Of a stretch of 41,901 nucleotides of DNA, positions 1 through 40,889 are shown in pieces (the first letter of the stretch is position 1; the number at the start of each line of letters is the position of its first letter). The notes beneath the pieces were generated by a model. It saw nothing but the letters and a program-made list of their open reading frames with translations. It made no database searches and was not told the origin of the DNA. Source of the DNA: a bacterium (GTDB taxonomy: Bacteria > Bacillota > Clostridia > Lachnospirales > Lachnospiraceae). Position numbers and translations under genes: made by a program. The stretch spans positions 1 through 41,901 of the forward strand of contig JAUNRX010000017.1 of assembly GCA_030539495.1 (NCBI GenBank), in the 5' to 3' direction.

Positions 1-201
1 TAGTATAACGCAAATGAGAGGGCCGGTGTAGGCGTGCTTGAGAGGACGCTTACGATACAATTAAAGAGAATGAGTATTACTTTGACGAAGGAAGAAGTTT
101 TATAAACTATCGAGTGAAATGGCTGTAAAATTAGAGTGTTAATCTGGTAAGTATTATTTGTATGTATATAGAAGAAAGTACGGAAATGAGGAGGTATATA
201 T

Positions 202-3200
202 ATGGCATATGAACTAGGTGGAAGAGCTGATAAATTTGGAAATCGTTTTGAATATAATTGGACAATAAGTAAAGTACTAGATGTCGTTCAAGAAAAAATA
301 GAGTTTATCACTTTAGAAGCGATAGGTGAAAATGAAGAAGGTGTAGATTTATGGGTTGGAAATAAAGATGGAAGCTGTGAAGGTCAGCAATGTAAAGGGC
401 GATCAGGTAGCGAAGAATCGTGGAGTTATGGTACGGTTAATGCAAAAGGTATTTTTACAAAATGGAAAAATCAATTAGAAAGAGATATAAAAAATCATGT
501 TTCATTGGTTTCGCCGTTGGCCTTTACATTATTTGAGGATTTAACAGTAAGAGCGAGAAATACAAGTATTAATCCGGATGATTTTTATGAATATCAAATA
601 AAAAAATCAGGACAAGAAACGCGTAATCTATTTAAAAATTATTGTAAAGTAATGGGGATAGATACTACTAATGAAAATCAAATACATATGGAAATTGATT
701 ATTTATCAAGAAGTTTCTATCGACAGATACCGGATTCTGAGCTAAAAAATATAGTTATTGAAAGAATTAATATACTTTTTTACGGAGATTCAAAAGAAGT
801 TTATAATAAATTACTTTCTTTTATTTTGACAGAAGATATATTAGGAAAACGTATTGATTCAACATATATATATAAGTATTTAATAGAAAGTGGAGTTGAG
901 TATAGAAATCTAGCAAAAGATAGACGTATATTGCCTAGAATACATGAGTTGAATAAAGAGTACAAAGAAAATTTCATCCCTTTGAAAAATGGCGTATTTG
1001 AAAGAAATGAATTTGCAACATGTAAAGATATTATTAGTAAAGGAAAATCACTTGTTATTCATGGGGGAGCAGGTGTAGGGAAAAGTGGATGTACAGAAAA
1101 TATTATACATTATTGCGAACAAAACACGATTCCATATCTGGCAATAAAGTTAGATAAACGAATTCCAACAGGCACATCAGAAATTTGGGGTAAATCAATG
1201 GGTCTATCGACGTCGCCAGCGCTTTGTTTAGAGGCTATATCGAAAGATAAAAAAGCAATTCTTATTATGGATCAGTTAGATTCTTTGAGATGGACACAAG
1301 CACATTCGGGAGTTTCATTGGAGATATGTTTGCAAATAATAAGAGAAATACAGAGTATTAATAATGAAAGACATGAAAAGATTGTAGTAGTTATGGTTAC
1401 CAGAACTTACGACTTAAAGAATGATATTGGTATTAAAACTCTTTTTAACACTAGTGAAGATAAAAAAATAGAATGGCAAGAAGTGCAAGTAAAGAATTTA
1501 AGCGAAGAGAACGTGAAAGATATTGTTGGAGGCAATTACGAAAGATTTTCTAAGAAGATGAAAGAGCTTTTAAGAACCCCTAGTAATTTATACATATGGC
1601 AACAATTAGAGCTGCAGGATGAATATATCAATATTGATACTACTAGACATTTGATTGAAAAGTGGTGGGGACAGTTACAAAAAAGGGCTGATAAAGTTAC
1701 CTTAAATGCTCTAGAACTTAATAATATAAAAAATAGGTTTGTAGAATTCTGTGATAGACATGGAAGAATAAATGCACCAGCAAATACGATGGGTTTATCT
1801 TCGAATTATATTGATTTTCTTCAATCAAATGGTTTTATGATAATAGACAAAAGGATTGTATCTTTTGTTCACCAATCAATTTTAGATTGTTTCTTGTCAG
1901 ACTATATGTTAGATGAGTTTTACGATGGAAAGTGTATAGAAGAAATTATCGGTGATAGAAGTAAACAAAAACCAGGGAGACGTTATCAGGTACAACTTTT
2001 TATGCAGCAGTTATTAGAAACTTCAGAGGAGGATTTTATAACCGTTGGAGAATCGATGCTTTGTTCAGTAAATATTAGGTTTAATGTTAAATATGTTTTT
2101 TTAGAGGTGTTATCCTTAATAGAATGTCCATCAGAGTTTATTGCTGAATATGTCATTGACAAGTTGGAGGATAATGAATGGTACGGTCATTTTTTGAATT
2201 GTGTTGTTAAAGAGAACTGTGGATATGTAAATGCTTTACAAAGAAGAGGAATTTTAGATTCTTGGATAAAACAAAACTATAAAAAAGACAGTGTAATAAA
2301 TTTACTTGTCAGTATATCACATGATTTATCGGAAGATTGCGTGGAGCTTATAAAACGATATTCGTTTATATCCGAAGAGGATGATAAAAAATGGAGTCGT
2401 TGTTTTGGGTGGAAAATTAATGAGGATTCAGAAACGTTGTTTGAGCTCAGAATGCAATATTATGACCATTATCCAGAATTACTTAATCAATATCTTAATA
2501 TAAAGGATATGATGATGGAGTGTGAGTTGCGAACTATACGAGTGTTAGCATTAATGTTGAAAGCAAAATATAAGAAAAATGGAAAAACTTTATTAAAATA
2601 TGAAGAAGACTTTGTTATTGAGGAATCTGAAATTATTGTGAGGCATTATAAAGAAATTGTTAGCTTATTTCTACCGCTATTACCTAAAGTTGATGATGCC
2701 CTTTTTTATAGTGAGTGGTCTGAAAGATATAGTTATAATGTTGGAATTGAAAGAGCTTGTGTTCAAATTCTTAAGAAAGCAAATAGAAAATATGCTAAGC
2801 TAGAACCTGAGGAGTTTTTATGTAAATATAGAGAATTTCAACTAACGGGAAATGAGCTATATAATGAGATATTGCTAGATGGACTTTGTTATCTTTCAGA
2901 TAAATATGCAGATGATATTGTTGCTTATTTGTGTAATGACTTTGAGAAAACTTTATTTGAGAGTACAAGTGGAAATGGAGATAGACTCTTTCTTGGGAAA
3001 AAAGTAATATCAAAAGTATCAAAAGTATGTAGTCAAGAATTATATTCGTTATTAGAAAACAAAATTATGCACTACTTTTCAACAGCTGCGGTAGAGCGTT
3101 TACAAAGACGAATGTCGTATAATAATGAGAAGAACGGTTACTATGCTTATTGGAGGTTTTGGGGAGATTTTCAATTAGAATGTTTGAGAGTTTTACCAGA

Positions 3201-4755
3201 GTATAGATTGACAGATACAGCAAAACAGATGCTATGTATGCTTAATAGAAGTATCGGAGACGATACATCAATATATCGTTATAATGATGGACACAGTGGT
3301 AACGTATTTTCACCAGTATCAGGAAAGAAGCTTAGCATAAAGAATTGGATAAATATAATTACAAATAATAAAATACCGAGTAATGAAAGTGGAAAGTGGA
3401 AAGAGGTAGAAGGTGGCTTTGTAGAGTCGACAAAAGAAGAATTTTCTAGTAGTTTTAAAGAATTTGTATCTGATAATCCTGAAGAAATATTAAAATATAT
3501 GCTTTCAATAGAAAGAGAGATAAGTGATATATATATAGATTGCCTTTTTGATGGAATTGCATATAGTTCTCATTTGGATGAAGTTGAAGACGATTTGATA
3601 GAAAGTATGTTTAATAAGTATAGTTATGATTATAAAAGTTACCGTGCAGTCACTATTTGTAGAATAGTTGAAAAGAAAAAGAATGTTAGATGGAGTCAAC
3701 GTACATTTGATATAATAAAGGATATTGCTAAAAATCACGAAAATCCAATGATTGAAAAGCCGAATGTTATTCCGAATGAAGATAAAGAAATTAAGTATGT
3801 TGATTCAATTGAAAGTAATGCGATTAATTCTGCTCGAGGCGAAGCTGCTTGTGTTATTGGGCATCTGCTATGGGATAATAAAGAGCTATACACTATATTT
3901 AAAGATACAATTGAATTATTAGTTAATGATATTAATCCTATAGTTCAGTATGCAAGCTTGTATTCGTTGTGGCCGGTTTATAATATAGATAAGGAATGGG
4001 CAATTCAAAAAATACTATTATTGTATAAAAAGGATTACAGAATGGCTGGGTTCTGTGATAGTAAAACTATGTTTTTCTTTTTATATAAGGAGCATAAAGA
4101 TGTGATACTAAATTTAATAATGGAGTGTTTTGAATCAGACGATAAACGCTTGATAAAAATAGCAGGCTTATCCATCGCTGAAATGTATATGCAGTATAAT
4201 GAGTTCCAAGATATAGTTATATCTACTGAAAGTCAAAGTAAGGAACAGCAGGAAAGTATTTTGGAAATGTTGATTCTATACCTTGGTATACCTAAGTATA
4301 ATGAGAAAGCAAAGATTATTCTAAGTAGTCTTATGGTTAAAAATGTTGATTTAGAATTATCATGGGCTAGATTATTTAATGACAAAAGAATTGAATATGA
4401 TAGGGATAAAATGTTTTTAATCAATTTATTAACATCTAAACATTCAAGAAAAATTATTCATGCATTTGTTAATTATTTGGAAGAAGATAATAGAGAGCTA
4501 ATTGACTATAATGAAATGATAATTAAGACGTGTAATAAACTATTACAAGACTATAAAACAGAAAAACAAGATTATTGGGATGTTCAAGATGAGTTATCAA
4601 AGCTTACACTCGCATTATATGATGCTACTTGTGATAATCCATTAGAAAGGTATAAAACAATTGCTAGTGAATGCTTGGATATATGGAATCAAATGTTTGA
4701 AACACAAATTGGAGAGGCTAGATCATTAACAAGAAAAATGATGGAATTGGAATAG
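202..4755 (+). CDS. Nuclease-STAND NTPase, Avs-like antiviral sensor
   Basis: A 1517-residue protein with three parts. Residues 1-110 look like a Mrr/Cap4-type PD-(D/E)XK nuclease: GGRADKFGNRFE (E17), then VDLWV (D49) and QQCKGR (Q63, K65). Residues about 280-560 are a STAND/NACHT-like P-loop NTPase: Walker A GGAGVGKS at 288-295, Walker B ILIMDQLD with D357 and D360, and a TRTYD sensor at 400-404. The remaining 950 residues have no motif I can name and look alpha-helical, as expected for a sensor of repeated helices. No signal peptide or membrane segment is visible. This architecture matches single-gene Avs defence proteins, in which the C-terminus recognises a phage protein and oligomerisation activates the nuclease; that role is inferred here. 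GAGGAGG at 188-194 fixes the start. The neighbours are a second nuclease-fold gene and an integrase, which suggests mobile defence cargo. I am sure of the architecture and less sure of the Avs subtype. Confidence 0.85.
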   Translation: MAYELGGRADKFGNRFEYNWTISKVLDVVQEKIEFITLEAIGENEEGVDLWVGNKDGSCEGQQCKGRSGSEESWSYGTVNAKGIFTKWKNQLERDIKNHVSLVSPLAFTLFEDLTVRARNTSINPDDFYEYQIKKSGQETRNLFKNYCKVMGIDTTNENQIHMEIDYLSRSFYRQIPDSELKNIVIERINILFYGDSKEVYNKLLSFILTEDILGKRIDSTYIYKYLIESGVEYRNLAKDRRILPRIHELNKEYKENFIPLKNGVFERNEFATCKDIISKGKSLVIHGGAGVGKSGCTENIIHYCEQNTIPYLAIKLDKRIPTGTSEIWGKSMGLSTSPALCLEAISKDKKAILIMDQLDSLRWTQAHSGVSLEICLQIIREIQSINNERHEKIVVVMVTRTYDLKNDIGIKTLFNTSEDKKIEWQEVQVKNLSEENVKDIVGGNYERFSKKMKELLRTPSNLYIWQQLELQDEYINIDTTRHLIEKWWGQLQKRADKVTLNALELNNIKNRFVEFCDRHGRINAPANTMGLSSNYIDFLQSNGFMIIDKRIVSFVHQSILDCFLSDYMLDEFYDGKCIEEIIGDRSKQKPGRRYQVQLFMQQLLETSEEDFITVGESMLCSVNIRFNVKYVFLEVLSLIECPSEFIAEYVIDKLEDNEWYGHFLNCVVKENCGYVNALQRRGILDSWIKQNYKKDSVINLLVSISHDLSEDCVELIKRYSFISEEDDKKWSRCFGWKINEDSETLFELRMQYYDHYPELLNQYLNIKDMMMECELRTIRVLALMLKAKYKKNGKTLLKYEEDFVIEESEIIVRHYKEIVSLFLPLLPKVDDALFYSEWSERYSYNVGIERACVQILKKANRKYAKLEPEEFLCKYREFQLTGNELYNEILLDGLCYLSDKYADDIVAYLCNDFEKTLFESTSGNGDRLFLGKKVISKVSKVCSQELYSLLENKIMHYFSTAAVERLQRRMSYNNEKNGYYAYWRFWGDFQLECLRVLPEYRLTDTAKQMLCMLNRSIGDDTSIYRYNDGHSGNVFSPVSGKKLSIKNWINIITNNKIPSNESGKWKEVEGGFVESTKEEFSSSFKEFVSDNPEEILKYMLSIEREISDIYIDCLFDGIAYSSHLDEVEDDLIESMFNKYSYDYKSYRAVTICRIVEKKKNVRWSQRTFDIIKDIAKNHENPMIEKPNVIPNEDKEIKYVDSIESNAINSARGEAACVIGHLLWDNKELYTIFKDTIELLVNDINPIVQYASLYSLWPVYNIDKEWAIQKILLLYKKDYRMAGFCDSKTMFFFLYKEHKDVILNLIMECFESDDKRLIKIAGLSIAEMYMQYNEFQDIVISTESQSKEQQESILEMLILYLGIPKYNEKAKIILSSLMVKNVDLELSWARLFNDKRIEYDRDKMFLINLLTSKHSRKIIHAFVNYLEEDNRELIDYNEMIIKTCNKLLQDYKTEKQDYWDVQDELSKLTLALYDATCDNPLERYKTIASECLDIWNQMFETQIGEARSLTRKMMELE

Positions 4756-4837
4756 TTTAGTTTATATGTTGTGCTTGTAGCTAGTCTAATTTTTCTTGGA
4801 TGAGTCTTTGTAACTGGTTATGAAAGGAGTGGAGATA

Positions 4838-5308
4838 ATGCCTAATATGGATTGGAAGTCTCTTTCTGATAAGAGCAGGCAGAAATTTGGAGCATATGGA
4901 GAGTATTATGCAAAAATGGAGTTTGCCTCTTATGGAGGGGATGTATATACGTCAGAGGTGGACGATCATGGAATTGACTTTGTATGTAAGTTGAAGGATA
5001 TATTTTTAGAGATTCAGGTAAAGTCGATTCAAGAAGGAACTGGATATGTATTTATGCCAAAGGCTCATTTTGATATTAATGATGAACAGTTGTTTGTATG
5101 TCTATTGATTTTTAAACAAGGTAGTTTGCCAAATATGTATCTAATTTCAGCATCTGCTTGGCAGAATACAAATGATTTGTTGAGATATCGAGCATATGAT
5201 AAGCCAAATCAAAAGAGTAAACCGGAATATGGGATTAATATTTCAAGTAAGAATATGCAGTACCTAAATGAATACAAATTCGATACCGTAATAAAGAAAT
5301 ACATATAG
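4838..5308 (+). CDS. Small PD-(D/E)XK-fold protein, DUF4365-like
   Basis: A 156-residue protein. The motif order GEYYAKMEF (E22), HGIDFV (D47) and LEIQVKS (E58, Q60, K62) is that of a DUF4365/Holliday-resolvase-like PD-(D/E)XK nuclease fold. An upstream in-frame ATG at 4820 overlaps the ribosome site; AGGAG at 4825-4829 sits 8 bases before the ATG at 4838, so I use the latter. The gene starts 82 bases after the STAND gene on the same strand and precedes the integrase. DUF4365 proteins are found in defence islands and mobile elements, alone or fused to other domains, but their role is not well defined. It could be a nuclease partner of the large protein or an independent cargo gene. No membrane segment is seen. 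Confidence 0.75.
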   Translation: MPNMDWKSLSDKSRQKFGAYGEYYAKMEFASYGGDVYTSEVDDHGIDFVCKLKDIFLEIQVKSIQEGTGYVFMPKAHFDINDEQLFVCLLIFKQGSLPNMYLISASAWQNTNDLLRYRAYDKPNQKSKPEYGINISSKNMQYLNEYKFDTVIKKYI

Positions 5309-5348
5309 TTTTTGCTTGTACTAGAAATCAGTTATAAAAAGATAAACA

Positions 5349-5376
5349 TTGAAATACTAACGAAATCTGTTACAAT
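5349..5376 (+). promoter_or_regulatory. Candidate sigma-A promoter for the integrase gene
   Basis: TTGAAA at 5349-5354 and TACAAT at 5371-5376 are separated by 16 bases. The stretch 5309-5510 otherwise holds no gene. A GCGCT/AGCGC pair about 45 bases apart follows the -10 element and could be a small operator or leader stem. Confidence 0.5.
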
Positions 5377-5510
5377 AAATGAGGCGCTAAGAATATCGTA
5401 GATATAACAAACTGATCACATATTTCAGCGCACAAGCTAAATTTTATGGATATAACTTTGATTTGCAATTTGATTACTTAATTAAAAATGAATTAATTAG
5501 GAGAAATCAA

Positions 5511-6680
5511 ATGGCAGAAAAGAAGAATAAAAATGGTGAAGGCTGCATCGCACTTCAAAAGGATGGAAGATGGGTAGCTAGAATCCAAATTGGTAAAAAA
5601 TCAGACGGAAGATCAAAGATTAAAGCTTTATATGGTAAGTCAAAAACAGAGGTATGTATTAGGCTTATGGAATATAAGAAAGAGTTAGCATTAAACCAAG
5701 AAGGGGTTACTGCTATGACGGTAGCAGAGTATATAACACGCTGGATGCTTCTTTATAAAATCAATACGGTCAGTGCAAGTACATATGATCGAATGGAGAA
5801 CACATTTATCTATCAGATTCAAGATAACATTGGTTATATCAAGATGGGAGATTTGAGAACAGAAGATATTCAGGTGTTTATTAATCAGAAATGTAAAACG
5901 ATATCCTACTCGTCTATTAAGAAGATCAAAGAATTGTTGAATGGTTGCTGTATTCAGGCAGTAAGATTGGGACATATGCAGCAGAATCCAATGGAGGGCA
6001 TTGTTATGCCGAATATGAAGGCAGTCGAAAAGAAGACGAAAGAAATTCAGATTTATTCAGATGAGGATATTGCTAAATTACAAGAAACGATTAATAGTTC
6101 ATTTAATAGTGTTATAAAGCTATATGCATACTCACCTAGTTATATCTTGGTGTTTAGTACTGGATTACGATTAGGAGAGGTATTAGGATTAACATGGGAT
6201 AATGTAAACTTTGAAGAACGTTACATTGTCGTAAAGAATAATGTTACCTATACAAAGAAGAGAAACGCAAATGCTGATAAGCAACGAGAGCTTGTAATTA
6301 CAACTCCGAAAACTAGAAGTGGTAGGAGAATGATACCTTTAAATGAAAAGGCAATGGATGCACTGGTAGAGTTGAAACGAAGATATAAGGTGCTTAATAT
6401 TGAGAGTGAATATGTAGTATGTAATTTAAAAGGTAATCTATTACTACCTCGTAATCATGCAAGAACACTAAAAAGTTTATGTGATCGAGCAGATGTAACT
6501 TATAGAGGTGTACATGCAATTAGACATACCTTTGCAAGTAGAGTAATTAGAATGGGCATAGAGATTAAGATTGTAAGCGAATTAATGGGACATAGCAATG
6601 TTCAAATAACTTATAATACTTATGTTCATATATTGCAAGAGCAGAGAGTGAAAGCAATAAAAGAGTTAGATAAACTATAA
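5511..6680 (+). CDS. Tyrosine site-specific recombinase (phage/ICE integrase)
   Basis: A 389-residue integrase of the Tn916/phage type. An N-terminal AP2-like arm-binding segment (about 5-50: NGEGCIALQKDGRWVARIQIGKK) is followed by a SAM-like core-binding domain (about 65-165) and the catalytic domain. Visible catalytic residues are R220 (TGLRLGEVLGL), H335 and R338 (HAIRHTFASR), H361 (MGHSNVQ) and the nucleophile Y371 (YNTYVH), so it looks active. The start is ATG 5511, behind TTAGGAG; the open frame extends upstream to 5463 but without a ribosome site. It inserts circular DNA at an att site. The attachment-like region directly downstream (6710-6890) supports the gene lying at one end of its element. 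No excisionase gene is visible. Confidence 0.93.
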   Translation: MAEKKNKNGEGCIALQKDGRWVARIQIGKKSDGRSKIKALYGKSKTEVCIRLMEYKKELALNQEGVTAMTVAEYITRWMLLYKINTVSASTYDRMENTFIYQIQDNIGYIKMGDLRTEDIQVFINQKCKTISYSSIKKIKELLNGCCIQAVRLGHMQQNPMEGIVMPNMKAVEKKTKEIQIYSDEDIAKLQETINSSFNSVIKLYAYSPSYILVFSTGLRLGEVLGLTWDNVNFEERYIVVKNNVTYTKKRNANADKQRELVITTPKTRSGRRMIPLNEKAMDALVELKRRYKVLNIESEYVVCNLKGNLLLPRNHARTLKSLCDRADVTYRGVHAIRHTFASRVIRMGIEIKIVSELMGHSNVQITYNTYVHILQEQRVKAIKELDKL

Positions 6681-6709
6681 GTCGATATTTATAAAAGACA
6701 GTCGAAAAT

Positions 6710-6830
6710 TATATGACATTGTAATCAAATTTTAAAATTGAGGCCTTGAAACCCGCTGGTATCAAGGATTTCGGAGGGATTGAAACAAGGTTCGATTCCC
6801 CTCAACTCCATGACAATGGAGAAAATAGGC
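6710..6830 (+). other. Attachment-like site with a tRNA/tmRNA 3' end
   Basis: Thirty bases after the integrase stop, the sequence contains a 24-base imperfect inverted repeat (6744-6767, arms CCTTGA/TCAAGG extended by ACC/GGT), typical of an integrase core site. It then has a tRNA-like 3' end: T-loop TTCGATT (6791-6797), CCCCT (6798-6802), acceptor half CAACTCC (6803-6809) and discriminator A (6810), followed by TGA instead of CCA. The acceptor half would pair with GGGGTTG with a U opposite G3, the alanine identity feature of tRNA-Ala and tmRNA. No 5' half is present, so this is a fragment and not a functional RNA. I infer a displaced 3' end left by integration, most likely at ssrA. Confidence 0.55.
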
Positions 6831-6966
6831 TAAAACAGGGGCGTTCAAGCATTGGAATGATTAAAATACATTAATAGACTGGTACGTAATGAAATAGTAG
6901 CCAAAACTGGTTGATAAATAATTAGATTATTTTTTACGAGATAGTTGTATTACGCTATCTCTTTTT
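6824..6966 (+). repeat. Direct repeat, copy 1 (38-bp identical core)
   Basis: About 140 bases here match 21098-21238 in the same orientation. The block 6847-6884, starting AAGCATTGGAATGATT, is identical over 38 bases to 21121-21158. The flanks are diverged but alignable, and both copies end in a GAGATAG/CTATCTC hairpin with a T-run. The copies are about 14.3 kb apart and bracket the transporter modules. They are probably integration scars or element ends. Confidence 0.85.
6938..6966 (+). terminator. Rho-independent terminator inside repeat copy 1
   Basis: GAGATAG (6938-6944) pairs with CTATCTC (6955-6961) around a 10-base loop and is followed by five T. It would end transcription coming from the integrase. 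Confidence 0.75.
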
Positions 6967-7010
6967 GGATTTATAGTATGGAATCACGGACAGAATGAAA
7001 AAGGATGCCA

Positions 7011-7060
7011 AGAAGTGTGCGATCATTTAAAAAGAAGTGTGCGATCATTTAAAAAGAAGT
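7011..7060. repeat. 22-bp tandem duplication at the broken end of the IS91-like gene
   Basis: A 22-base unit beginning AGAAGTGTGCGATC occurs at 7011-7032 and exactly again at 7033-7054, with the first six bases of a third copy at 7055-7060. Because 22 is not a multiple of three, the duplication shifts frame and creates the stop of the truncated transposase read on the minus strand. Confidence 0.9.
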
Positions 7061-7364
7061 CGCGTAGTTCCTCAGGAATAGTAAAAACACAATGTCTGTG
7101 ATCACAATGAACAAGTTTAGAGGAAATACGAAAAGAGCGTTTTTGATTATACATGTTTCCGCAAGAAGGACAAAAACGGCTTTTACAACGGAAGGGAACA
7201 AACTTGAGTTCGCCGCATTCTGAACAGCCAAACATGGCGCCACCGAAAGATGGATCGCCACAGTGGATCATTTTTTCGACATTCTCAAGAACGGATTGTC
7301 GAGGGTGAAGTATGTATTTCATTTCTTCATAATGGTTGGTAAAAATCTTTTGTAGTATATTCAT
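7023..7364 (-). pseudogene. IS91-family transposase, N-terminal remnant
   Basis: 113 residues remain of a protein that is normally around 400. The remnant carries the IS91-type N-terminal zinc-binding region: CSECGELKFVPFRCKSRFCPSCG with four CxxC-type cysteines, then a helical part ending IPEELRDFF. The HUH/Y2 catalytic domain is missing. The frame is lost in the 22-bp tandem duplication at 7011-7060, and no further transposase sequence follows. It lies beside the beheaded ABC ATPase at 7374 in opposite orientation, so this element or its deletion probably removed the start of that gene. Not functional. Confidence 0.8.
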
Positions 7365-7373
7365 ACAATCATT

Positions 7374-8021
7374 ATGAAGGAAAAAGCGAGAAAAAGAAAG
7401 TCCCTCCCCTCAAGATTGAGGGGCAGGGGAGTTGAAGTGTGCAAAGCACACTTTGTTCAAGGAAAAGAGCTTGGAAAAGTAAAAGAAAAAGAGATTGCTG
7501 CGTTTCGTAGGGATAATCTTGGATTTGTATTTCAGGAGTTTAATTTACTGGATACGTTTAATCTAAAAGATAATATTTTGCTTCCACTTGTTCTGGCTAA
7601 GAAAAACGTAAAAGAAATGGAAGCAAGGCTTGCTTCGATTGCAAAGAGACTTGGGATAGACGAGTTGCTTCTAAAATATCCATACGAGGTATCTGGCGGT
7701 CAGAAACAGCGTGCAGCAGTAGCGCGTGCACTTATTACGAATCCGAAATTAATTTTGGCTGATGAACCTACGGGAGCCCTTGATTCCAAATCAACGGATA
7801 GTCTGCTTAAGGTATTTTCAAAAATCAATGGGGAGAGTCAGACGATTCTTATGGTTACCCATTCTACCAAGGCAGCAAGTCATGCCGGACGAGTTCTGTT
7901 TATAAAGGATGGGGAGGTATTTCACCAGATTTATCGTGGTAATCAGACCGATGAACAGATGTATCATAAGATTTCGGATACGTTAACGTTATTGGCAACA
8001 GGTGGTGGTCAAAATGAATAA
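7374..8021 (+). pseudogene. BceA-type ABC ATPase, 5' end lost (no Walker A)
   Basis: The open frame runs 215 residues, but ABC homology begins only near residue 30 (GKELGKV). Present are the Q-loop (FVFQEFN, Q54), the signature VSGGQ (106-110), Walker B LILADEP (D130, E131), the D-loop GALDSKST and the switch histidine region MVTHS. The first 60-70 residues of the family, including Walker A GxSGSGKST, are absent and replaced by basic residues encoded by the IS junction. BceA homologues are about 250 residues. Without Walker A it cannot bind ATP normally, so the exporter is probably dead unless another ATPase substitutes. It overlaps the permease start by eight bases, as in intact bceAB operons. 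Confidence 0.85.
7406..7453. repeat. Two short hairpins at the IS91 remnant/ABC gene junction
   Basis: CCCCTCA/TGAGGGG with a four-base loop (7406-7423) and AAGTGTGC/GCACACTT with an AAA loop (7435-7453) lie between the transposase remnant and the point where ABC homology resumes (about 7460). Hairpins of this kind occur at the ends of rolling-circle IS elements, so they may be the element terminus. That assignment is inference. Confidence 0.45.
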
Positions 8022-36671: not shown

Positions 36672-39600
36672 TTACATATTCTTTTCGGCAGTAGAGAGCA
36701 TTAGCTTGATTCGGTTTAACTGATTTACTTCGCTGGCACCTGGATCGTAATCGATAGCTACGATGTTTGTGTCTTTAAAGGATTGACGAAGCACTTTGAT
36801 AACACCTTTACCAACAACGTGGTTTGGTAAGCAGCCGAAAGGCTGAGTACATACGATATTGTTAACTCCAGAATGGATTAACTCAATCATTTCACCGGTT
36901 AAGAACCAGCCTTCACCTGTTTGGTTACCAATGGATACAAAGTCACTTGCATAGTCGGCAAGAGTGTTGATCTTTACTGGTGCGCTAAAACGTTTACTTT
37001 CATTTAAAGCCTTCACTAATGGCTTACGATACCATTCGATAAAACGGATGGCAGTATTACAGATAATAGCACTCTTCTTGCTCTTTCCTAAATTCTCATG
37101 CTTGAAGTTAGAGTCATAAGCACAGTATAGGAAGAAGTCAAGTAAGTCTGGAACAACGGCTTCAGCGCCTTCTGCTTCTAATTGTTCAACAATATAGTTG
37201 TTTGCGATTGGAAGGAATTTAACAAGAATTTCTCCAACAACTCCAACTCTAGGCTTCTTAATATCTAATAATTCTAACTGATCGAAATCAGACACAATTC
37301 CTTTGATATTAGCTTTAAATTCTCCATGACGTCCATTATGGATAGAAGTGAGACATTTCTTTTTCCATTTTTCATAAAGGGCATTAGCAGAGCCTTCTTT
37401 TGCTTCATAAGGTCTTGTCTTGTAGAGAACGCGCATTAATGCATCTCCGTAGATTAAGCCTTGTAACGCACGATTTAAGATCTTAGGCGTATATTGCATA
37501 CCTGAATTTTTCTCGATACCCTGTGCACTGATAGAAATAACAGGTACATGGGACAGGTTTGCTTTTTCAAGAGCACGTCGGATAAATCCAATATAGTTTG
37601 TAGCACGGCATCCACCACCGGTTTGTGTAATGATAACAGCAACTTTATCCGTATCGTATCTGCCGGAAAGTAATGCTTCCATAATCTGTCCAACTACGAT
37701 AAGAGAAGGATAGCAGGCATCATTATTTACATATTTCAGGCCGTAATCAATCGTTGTGCGGTTATCACTATTTAGGACAACTGCATTATAGCCGCTGACC
37801 GTAAATGCTTCCTGAACGAAGTCAAAGTGGATTGGTGACATCTGAGGACAAAGAATCGTATACGTATCTTTCATTTCTTTTGTGAATTCCACACGTTTAC
37901 GAGCTGCAGAGACAACTTTAGGCTCGATATGTTTCTTCTCACGATCTTTTACTGCAGAGATTAAGCTTCGAATACGAATTCTTGCAGCACCTAAGTTATT
38001 TACTTCATCAATCTTTAATACAGTATAAATCTTGCCAGACTTCGTTAAAATGTCATTTACTTCATCGGTTGTAACGGCATCCAGACCGCAGCCGAAGGAA
38101 TTTAATTGAATTAATTCCAAGTTTGATTGAGTACGTACGAAAGAAGCGGCAGCATAAAGGCGGGAATGGTACATCCATTGATCCATAACGATGGTTGGAC
38201 GATCTACCTTGCCAAGATGTGCAATACTGTCTTCGGTAAGTACGGCGATATCGTAGGAAGTAATTAATTCTGGAATACCATGATTGATTTCTTTATCAAT
38301 ATGATAAGGACGGCCGGCTAATACAATGCCTCGTTTGCCTGTTTTTTTCAAGTATTCAAGAGTCTCTTCCCCTTTTTTGCGAACATCGTCACGAACTTTT
38401 GTAAGTTCTGCAAAAGCAGCATGAGCAGCTTCTTTAACTTCGTTTGCAGGAATATTATTTTCTTTTCCCATGACTTTGATTAACTGATTCGTAATAATCT
38501 CTTCAGACTCAAAGGATAGGAATGGATTTTGATAAACGATAGAGGAGTTTTGTAGCTCTTCCACATTATTTTTAATATTTTCACCATAACTTGTAACGAT
38601 TGGGCAGTTGTAATGATCATTTGCTGTTGGATCTTCTACACGTTCGTAAGGAATACAAGGATAGAAGATGTACTGCAATCCTTCTTTGATCAGCCACATA
38701 ATATGACCATGTGCAAGTTTTGCAGGATAACATTCACTTTCACTTGGAATAGATTCAATACCAAGTTCATAAATACCACGATTGGACTCTGGTGAGAGTA
38801 CGACACGATAGTTTAATTTTGTAAAGAAAGTAAACCAGAATGGATAGTTTTCATACATATTCAGTACTCTTGGGATACCGACTAGGCCACGGCTGGCTTT
38901 TTCTTCTGGCAATGGTTCATAGCCAAAGGTTCTTTGGTTTTTATATTCAAATAAGTTTGGTACGCCATTTGCATTTTTAACCTTGCCAATACCCTTTTCA
39001 CAACGGTTACCGGAGATATAATTACGTCCTCCTGTAAAACGGTTGATTGTAAGACGGCAGTGGTTTGTACAGCCCTTACATCTTGTGAGTTTTGTATCAA
39101 ACTTAAGATTAATGATATTTTCAAAGGAGAGCATAGTAGACTCTTGACCTTCATAATGCTCACGTGCAATTAATGCAGCACCGAATGCACCCATGATACC
39201 TGCAATATCCGGACGGATAGCCTGACAGGAGGAGATACGTTCGAAACTTCTTAAAACAGCATCGTTGTAGAAAGTACCACCTTGAACTACAATATTTTTA
39301 CCGAGGTCTTTTGGATCTGTAATCTTAATAACCTTTAATAAGGCATTTTTAATAACAGAGTAAGCAAGACCTGCACTAATATCAGCAACCGTAGCACCTT
39401 CTTTTTGAGCCTGTTTTACTTTGGAATTCATAAATACAGTACATCTGGAACCAAGATCGATTGGGTTCTGTGCAAATAGTGCAACTTTGGCAAAATCAGC
39501 AACTTCATAGTTTAATGATTTTGCAAAGGTTTCGATAAAGGAACCACATCCGGAGGAACAAGCTTCATTTAACTGAACGCTGTCGACGGAGTGATTTTTA

Positions 39601-40889
39601 ATCTTGATGCACTTCATATCCTGTCCACCGATATCGAGGATACAGTCTACAGAAGGATCAAAGAATGCTGCTGCATAGTAATGGGCAACTGTTTCTACTT
39701 CCCCTTCATCTAGTAAAAGTGCTGATTTAATAAGCGCTTCTCCATATCCAGTAGAACAAGAACGTACGATTTGAACGCCTTCAGGGAGCATCTCATAGAT
39801 TTCCTTGATGGAGCGAATCGTAGTCTTTAATGGACTACCGTTGTTATTACTGTAGAAGGAGTAGAGTAAAGAACCGTCTTCCCCTACTAAAGCTACTTTA
39901 GTTGTAGTGGAACCTGCATCGATACCGAGATAGCAGTTTCCTTTATATGTAGCAAGATCTCCTTTGACTACACTGTGCTTATTATGACGATCTAAGAATT
40001 CATTGTATTCTTCTTCGTCCTTAAACAGTGGTTCAAGTCTTGTTACTTCAAACTCTAATTTAACTTTATTACTAAGTAATGTGATTAAATCATCAAAAGT
40101 CGTAATGTTTTCGCCTTTTGAGTTCATTGCACTTCCGATTGCAGCAAATAAATGAGAATTATCTGGATCTACAATGGTCTCGTCTGTTAGTTTTAAAGTT
40201 CTAATAAAAGCTTGTTTTAATTCTGTTAAGAAATGGAGTGGTCCACCTAAAAAGGCAACATGTCCACGAATTGGCTTACCACATGCAAGACCGCTGATTG
40301 TCTGATTAACAACTGCTTGGAAAATAGAAGCAGAGAGGTCTGGCTTAGTTGCGCCTTCGTTGATTAATGGCTGAATATCCGTCTTGGCAAATACACCACA
40401 CCTTGCAGCGATAGGATAAAGTGCCTGATAGTCTTTGGCATATTCATTTAATCCGGCTGCATCTGTCTTTAACAGAGTAGCCATCTGATCGATAAAGGAA
40501 CCTGTACCGCCTGCGCAAATACCGTTCATTCTTTGATCAATTCCATTATTGAAATAAATAATCTTCGCATCTTCCCCACCGAGTTCGATTGCAACATCAG
40601 TTTGAGGTGCATAGTGTTCAAGAGATGATGCAACGGCAACAACTTCCTGAATAAAAGGGATGTTCATATTTTTGGCCAATGCAAGACCACCGGATCCTGT
40701 AATCATTGGGGCAACGGTTAAATCACCAAGAGTTCCTTTTGCTTTCGTAATTAAATCTGATAGTGTTTCTTGTATATTAGCAAAATGTCTTTGATAGTCT
40801 GAAAATAATATATTTAGTTCTTCATCAAGGACAGCTATTTTTACAGTTGTTGATCCAATATCTATACCGATCGTATACTTATTTTTCAT
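36672..40889 (-). CDS. 2-hydroxyacyl-CoA dehydratase activase-related fusion protein
   Basis: 1405 residues with two consecutive BcrAD/BadFG (HgdC-like ASKHA) ATPase domains. Domain 1 (about 5-265) has [14 protein letters not shown] and CAGGTGSF with C125 and C164. Domain 2 (about 318-580) has [14 protein letters not shown], and SGCGSF with C448 and C483. These cysteines match those holding the bridging [4Fe-4S] cluster of HgdC. A cysteine cluster follows (about 610-645: [16 protein letters not shown]), then DUF2229 and a C-terminal HgdB-like region. HgdC-type proteins pump an electron into a dehydratase using ATP; the role of the long fusions is not settled. No dehydratase genes are adjacent. 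All key residues look intact. Confidence 0.92.

Follow-up and report, generated by a model that had tools for sequence, protein, structure and literature searches.

The window analysed here, a stretch of 41,901 bases that makes up a complete contig of its source genome, a member of the Lachnospiraceae (contig C132; GenBank JAUNRX010000017.1), carries near its start a gene for a large STAND protein with an N-terminal nuclease and, just behind it, a gene for a small second nuclease, and the question raised by this locus is whether the two genes form one antiviral system. The reading that we hold to be probable is that the STAND gene acts alone, as an Avs-like antiphage sensor of a distinct clade, and that the small gene is independent cargo, carried with it on an integrase element near ssrA and not required by the STAND protein. 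The best explanation of the wider data is that this clade is distinct, widespread and mostly found in Bacillota, and that its chassis takes different effectors, including the nuclease of Avs4.

The large open reading frame (ORF; 202-4755, + strand) is open over 1517 residues, with GAGGAGG directly upstream. Its N-terminal segment, a PD-(D/E)XK-type nuclease or effector segment (202..906, + strand, residues 1-235), contains E17, D49 and Q63-x-K65 (QCK, residues 63-65), and is followed by the STAND NTPase core (994..1551, + strand, residues 265-450), with the Walker A sequence HGGAGVGKSG and a Walker B ending in IMDQLD, then by a middle region and a long C-terminal tail on the same strand (about residues 640-1517), presumably the sensor. 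The nuclease residues and the Walker A/B pair had been named in an earlier note on this DNA, and both are present as described. In Pfam, the large protein scores 21.8 bits against AAA, over the cut-off of 21.2, and 22.7 bits against nSTAND3, under the cut-off of 27.2. The small ORF (4820-5308, + strand) is likewise open, over 162 residues; its best start, preceded by AAAGGAG, gives a DUF4365/Mrr-like gene of 156 residues (4838..5308, + strand), in which D47 and Q60-K62 (QVK, residues 60-62) stand where the same note had placed them; E22 is there as well. The 82 bases that it had counted between the two co-directional genes hold with this start, from the STAND stop to position 4838.

The family of the large protein was collected by a scan of genome_contigs (one genome per species) with a three-row alignment and two short patterns, by which the scan is limited; it gave 141 relatives, of which the best 80, with one row from viral_contigs, make up a set of 81. 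Close-relative peptide patterns taken from the STAND protein by itself had no match in either genome_contigs or viral_contigs. The scan patterns cover residues ~6-14 and the DQLD box, so that conservation there is partly by construction, and E17, [D/E]49, Q63, K65 and K294-S295 fall outside both. All four nuclease positions are kept in each of the 63 rows that have the window-type N-terminus (12 rows without those positions and six with another N-terminus being set aside), and K294-S295 of the P-loop is kept in all 76 rows that reach the region, the other five of the 81 being set aside. Walker B D-Q-x-D is also kept in 76/76, partly by construction, given that DQLD[AS]LRW, found in 69/81 rows, is one of the two scan patterns. 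Since the motif residues are intact in 63/63 and 76/76 rows, they are more than chance. Most proteins of the set are long (>1450 residues in 66/81), and among the 58 long rows with a window-type N-terminus the best-conserved segment is residues 1-75 (mean identity 0.53) and the least conserved the last 217 residues (0.32), a gradient as would be expected for a fixed enzyme joined to a varying sensor. With 141 relatives from a single pattern-limited scan, the clade is widespread, and it is apparently unnamed by the models scanned. In an order-level genome sample a relative is present in 2 of 295 genomes, the source genome counted; relatives in plasmid records are few and distant (six records), and a search of phage records found none.

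That residues 1-235 are an effector is concluded chiefly from the exchange of the N-terminus among relatives: in six of them, four from Clostridium and two from Sporosarcina, it is of another type. The four Clostridium proteins (Clostridium gasigenes L055, Clostridium sp. L056, C. nigeriense L062 and C. paraputrificum L070) match the PADLOC Avs4 model with E values of 4e-76 to 3e-85, the match being limited to residues 7 to ~240 in three of them, with a best stretch of 5-496 in L056; in the NTPase region all four match the PADLOC family PDC-M54A, as do the window-type rows that were scanned. In the two Sporosarcina proteins (L033, 9503 onward; L081, 9476 onward) the first ~200 residues have no effector match in Pfam or PADLOC, and these relatives may rely on an effector encoded at another site. 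A quick-method tree built from residue 240 on, with 75 of 82 rows and a midpoint root (15 of the 72 inner branches open), unites the four Avs4-type rows in one fully supported group, whose neighbour L024 carries the window-type nuclease; the two Sporosarcina rows stand beside two Sporomusa rows that have the window-type nuclease as well. Because both groups with an odd N-terminus nest in this tree, effectors have been swapped within the clade, most simply in two separate events. On this ground, the best reading is that residues 1-235 are an effector and that the protein is Avs-like. The Clostridium relatives, with an Avs4 nuclease on the NTPase and tail of the window clade, are natural chimeras, through which it can be tested directly whether phage specificity is a matter of the tail alone, with an interchangeable effector.

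How far the protein belongs with the named Avs types is a narrower question. Against an Avs assignment, and against a single-gene one in particular, stand the model searches: PADLOC has no Avs1-5 model that matches the STAND protein of the window at E ≤ 1, no NCBIfam model matches it, and PDC-M54A, the sole PADLOC family that does (E 5.6e-9), covers in its best stretch residues 281-571 only, and carries a label that we take to denote a multi-gene candidate. PDC-M54A is itself a PADLOC candidate only, the match of the window protein to it is partial, short of full length, and a literature search on PDC-M54 found no paper. The Avs2 model is approached only by distant rhizobial relatives (E 0.025-0.038), and literature searches, judged from the openings of abstracts, gave no name for the clade. 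The Avs plan that the earlier note had assigned to the protein is supported: the nuclease and NTPase motifs are conserved, and in relatives the effector has been swapped for one of Avs4 type. Avs1-4 share a tripartite plan with nuclease effectors, and Avs4 (AVAST type 4) has an N-terminal nuclease, a STAND ATPase and a long C-terminal part in a single chain (PMC12931631), as the window protein has. The nuclease domain of Avs4 itself is found on the chassis of the window clade in the four Clostridium relatives, whereas the window protein lies outside the Avs4 model at E ≤ 1. It shows two features of the Avs class, a STAND P-loop NTPase and an N-terminal effector exchangeable among relatives.

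Further evidence comes from solved structures. PDB 9n00_A (AAA family ATPase, 1523 residues) aligns at profile positions 49-642 with an E value of 5e-20, from the nuclease motif (D49, QCK) through the NTPase; chain A of 9n00, 9n01 and 9yix is like the window protein from D..QCK through the NTPase, but not significantly so in the stretch of tail that lies within the profile (positions to 1202). By its sequence, 9n00 is a distant relative with a solved structure. The window protein matches none of the named Avs types, yet it appears to be of the Avs kind, though of an unnamed type, because it has the Avs plan, kinship with PDC-M54A and a distant relative in 9n00. By analogy with the Avs family, some conserved phage protein would be recognised by the C-terminal tail, upon which the STAND ATPase would oligomerise and the N-terminal PD-(D/E)XK nuclease would cut DNA, so that infection would be stopped and the cell protected. 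It is highly unlikely that the STAND protein is instead a decayed protein or a regulator with no part in defence: in favour of that reading, the set has relatives that are broken or that stop at the end of a contig, but the nuclease motif is kept in every window-type row, the Avs4 nuclease has been exchanged in, and the gene sits in a mobile element.

The earlier note had gone on to suggest that the two genes are a two-component variant, with the small nuclease as helper, regulator or backup effector, and had named chance neighbourhood, with no conserved linkage, as the finding that would speak against it. No conserved linkage was found, and the suggestion is not supported; as an arrangement restricted to this lineage, with a helper, second effector or regulator recruited by the STAND protein, we regard it as very unlikely. 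The small gene is adjacent in none of the 81 STAND loci: tblastn of the small protein across them gave nothing better than E 1.9, and a profile of 16 small-family proteins, run against their 3,648 ORFs, gave one weak match only (E 0.002), in a 403-residue ORF of L077 that lies ~8 kb upstream, far from the STAND gene. At least 1 kb of sequence is present downstream in 66 of the 81 loci, upstream in 68 and on both sides in 58; the 15 with <1 kb downstream are little informative there. In the plasmid relatives L007-L009 the annotation shows no small gene beside the STAND gene, and the search of plasmids with the small protein matched two other records only. Seen from the other side, a STAND relative is present in the ORFs of 1 of 22 small-gene loci, namely that of the window itself, and in none of the other 21 (the loci taken from genomes span ~1.5 kb on each side, those of G047 being left out); a search of the whole G047 genome for a STAND relative found none. 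The STAND protein also has an intact nuclease motif of its own.

Co-occurrence across whole genomes points the same way. At E 1e-5 the small-gene profile has matches in 6 of the 78 STAND genomes. The matches in G708, G712 and G718, 45-49 residues long and inside open frames of 288-406 residues, were dropped as belonging to other proteins, and convincing copies remain in G719, G721 and G754, that of G719 being interrupted. In a sample of the phylum, the small family is present in 10 of 397 other genomes, the matches in G325, G476, G514 and G608 (E 5.5e-9 to 1.6e-11 and 8.6e-9) being partial; G754 and G363 denote a single genome, with one and the same contig of 238,002 bases, so that it counts in both sets. 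There is no clear enrichment in 3/78 vs 10/397 (Fisher p 0.36), nor when partial matches are dropped on both sides (2/78 vs 6/397, p 0.39), and 3/78 vs 6/397 gives p 0.17. In the reverse direction, a STAND relative is present in 1 of 12 small-gene genomes, that of Pseudoflavonifractor An44.

Several observations nevertheless speak for a link between the genes and thus against their independence. The two genes of the window run in the same direction, 82 bases apart, the small one with its own ribosome-binding site, and a simple scan found no terminator-like site between them, which says little, as 0.1 such sites would be expected by chance. When weak matches are counted, 6/78 vs 10/397 gives p 0.03, at unequal thresholds and alignments (STAND genomes at 1e-5 with alignment A5, the sample at 1e-8 with alignment A3). 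In G721 the small gene lies on a contig of 56.6 kb that is not the STAND contig and no overlap between the two was found; both genes are near contig ends, which leaves their closeness there open. In An44, finally, both genes lie in one island, where the small gene follows the STAND gene at a downstream distance of 11.2 kb. They are separated by a helicase gene of PLD/ResIII type in two frames, a set that includes JetD and an SbcC/MukB-like gene, and a gene for a 337-residue protein, and the arrangement is a defence island, not a two-gene operon. These data are consistent with both genes tending loosely to settle in defence islands. The An44 island as a whole (L131:1-18001) holds the STAND gene, the PLD/ResIII helicase, the Wadjet-type genes, the DUF4365-like small gene and two more helicase-like genes; in the Wadjet set JetD was assigned by Pfam, and the remaining genes are those that we presume to belong to it.

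Separate nuclease genes are not foreign to such systems: they serve Avs1 and Hachiman, and the nuclease-protease pairs of Avs1 are a precedent for a separate nuclease gene in an Avs system (PMC12799240). Unlike in those pairs, the small protein of the window is of PD-(D/E)XK type and no protease was seen. We likewise give little credence to the idea that the free small nuclease is a recently acquired second effector acting in trans beside the integrase, a two-nuclease Avs variant, which in its broader form would make of the clade a distinct Avs type that takes the effectors of other types, Avs4 included. Under the preferred reading, in which the STAND gene works as a single gene, the locus illustrates that paired nuclease genes in a mobile element need not form a system. 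No partner common to the clade came out of clustering the non-overlapping flanking ORFs of the 81 loci, the largest clusters being present in 14, 13 and 12 loci, spread over the two sides and the two strands. Judging their sequences by eye, the STAND genes have recombinase, HsdM-like and ResIII-type genes among their neighbours. One flanking cluster, which we take to be RhuM-like, follows the STAND gene after 15-47 bases in L029, L031, L040 and L061 and lies further off in L032 and L039 (6/81 loci in all), possibly as the neighbour of one subclade.

What the small gene is by itself is a question that concerns this gene only, and its answer is compatible with the single-gene reading of the STAND protein. 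The N-terminus of the STAND protein and the small protein would both be of PD-(D/E)XK type, judging by conserved acidic residues and a Q/E-x-K pattern; in the 16-row alignment of the small family K62 never varies, and at least 90% of rows keep each of E22, D47 and Q60. To the DUF4365 label given to the small protein in the earlier note there corresponds a weak match to the Pfam family (PF14280), with a score of 16.3 bits, below the cut-off of 24.3. Among five small-family members run against Pfam, four match DUF4365, three Mrr_cat_2 (best E 0.012) and one PDDEXK_5 (E 3.9e-5). Like DUF4365 nucleases, for instance those of SPARDA short-Argonaute operons, the small protein has a conserved E, D, Q-x-K pattern; unlike in SPARDA, the small gene adjoins STAND and integrase genes, with no Argonaute.

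It is moderately likely that the small protein is a separate nuclease of phages and islands, an exclusion or defence cargo that would act alone, and that its place in the window is a landing spot for new cargo beside the integrase. Its relatives are found in Bacillus phage SPbetaL2, on an A. baumannii plasmid that also has genes for portal and capsid, on a Microvirga plasmid, on seven IMG/VR contigs and in 12 sampled genomes, the source genome not counted; the phage-borne copies could equally serve the processing of phage DNA. In G038 the gene lies in a stretch with TnsD/TniQ, PDDEXK_4 and SLFN_AlbA_2 genes, which, with the island that holds Wadjet-type genes, agrees with a defence cargo. Interrupted copies are present in G047, G410 and G719, as may be expected for dispensable cargo, which hints that the gene is dispensable or decaying. 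Interruptions were noted at L103, L110, L005 and L126, that is, in several genomes and one viral contig.

The setting of both genes is that of a mobile element. The small gene is followed by a tyrosine integrase gene (5463..6680, + strand; Phage_integrase, E 5.6e-26), and past it an att-like sequence of 24 bases (6788..6811, + strand) recurs once in the source genome, identically, on contig C40 (C40:16073-16096). The C40 copy lies 113-116 bases past the end of ssrA, which was identified both by Rfam and by ARAGORN; the 23-base core matches exactly at these two places in the source genome and nowhere in three further genomes of the genus, and Rfam found no RNA family in positions 1-8000 of the window. 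Beyond the repeat, C40 runs on for 2.5 kb, with an ORF of 680 residues (L122:1928-3970) that has no Pfam match, and then ends. This ORF is probably cargo of the same element, for which the layout would be smpB - ssrA - att - element (680-residue ORF ... STAND gene - small gene - integrase) - att - chromosome, smpB being presumably the gene beside ssrA. The sequence gap would then lie inside the element, the integrase would belong to the element that carries both nuclease genes, and the window copy of the repeat would mark its right end.

Adjoining the att-like repeat, a gene on the other strand (7023-7364, - strand) codes for an IS91-type transposase zinc-binding domain. Positions 36672-40889 (- strand) encode a protein of 1405 residues with BcrAD_BadFG and DUF2229 domains, of the CoA-enzyme activase type, which looks ordinary.
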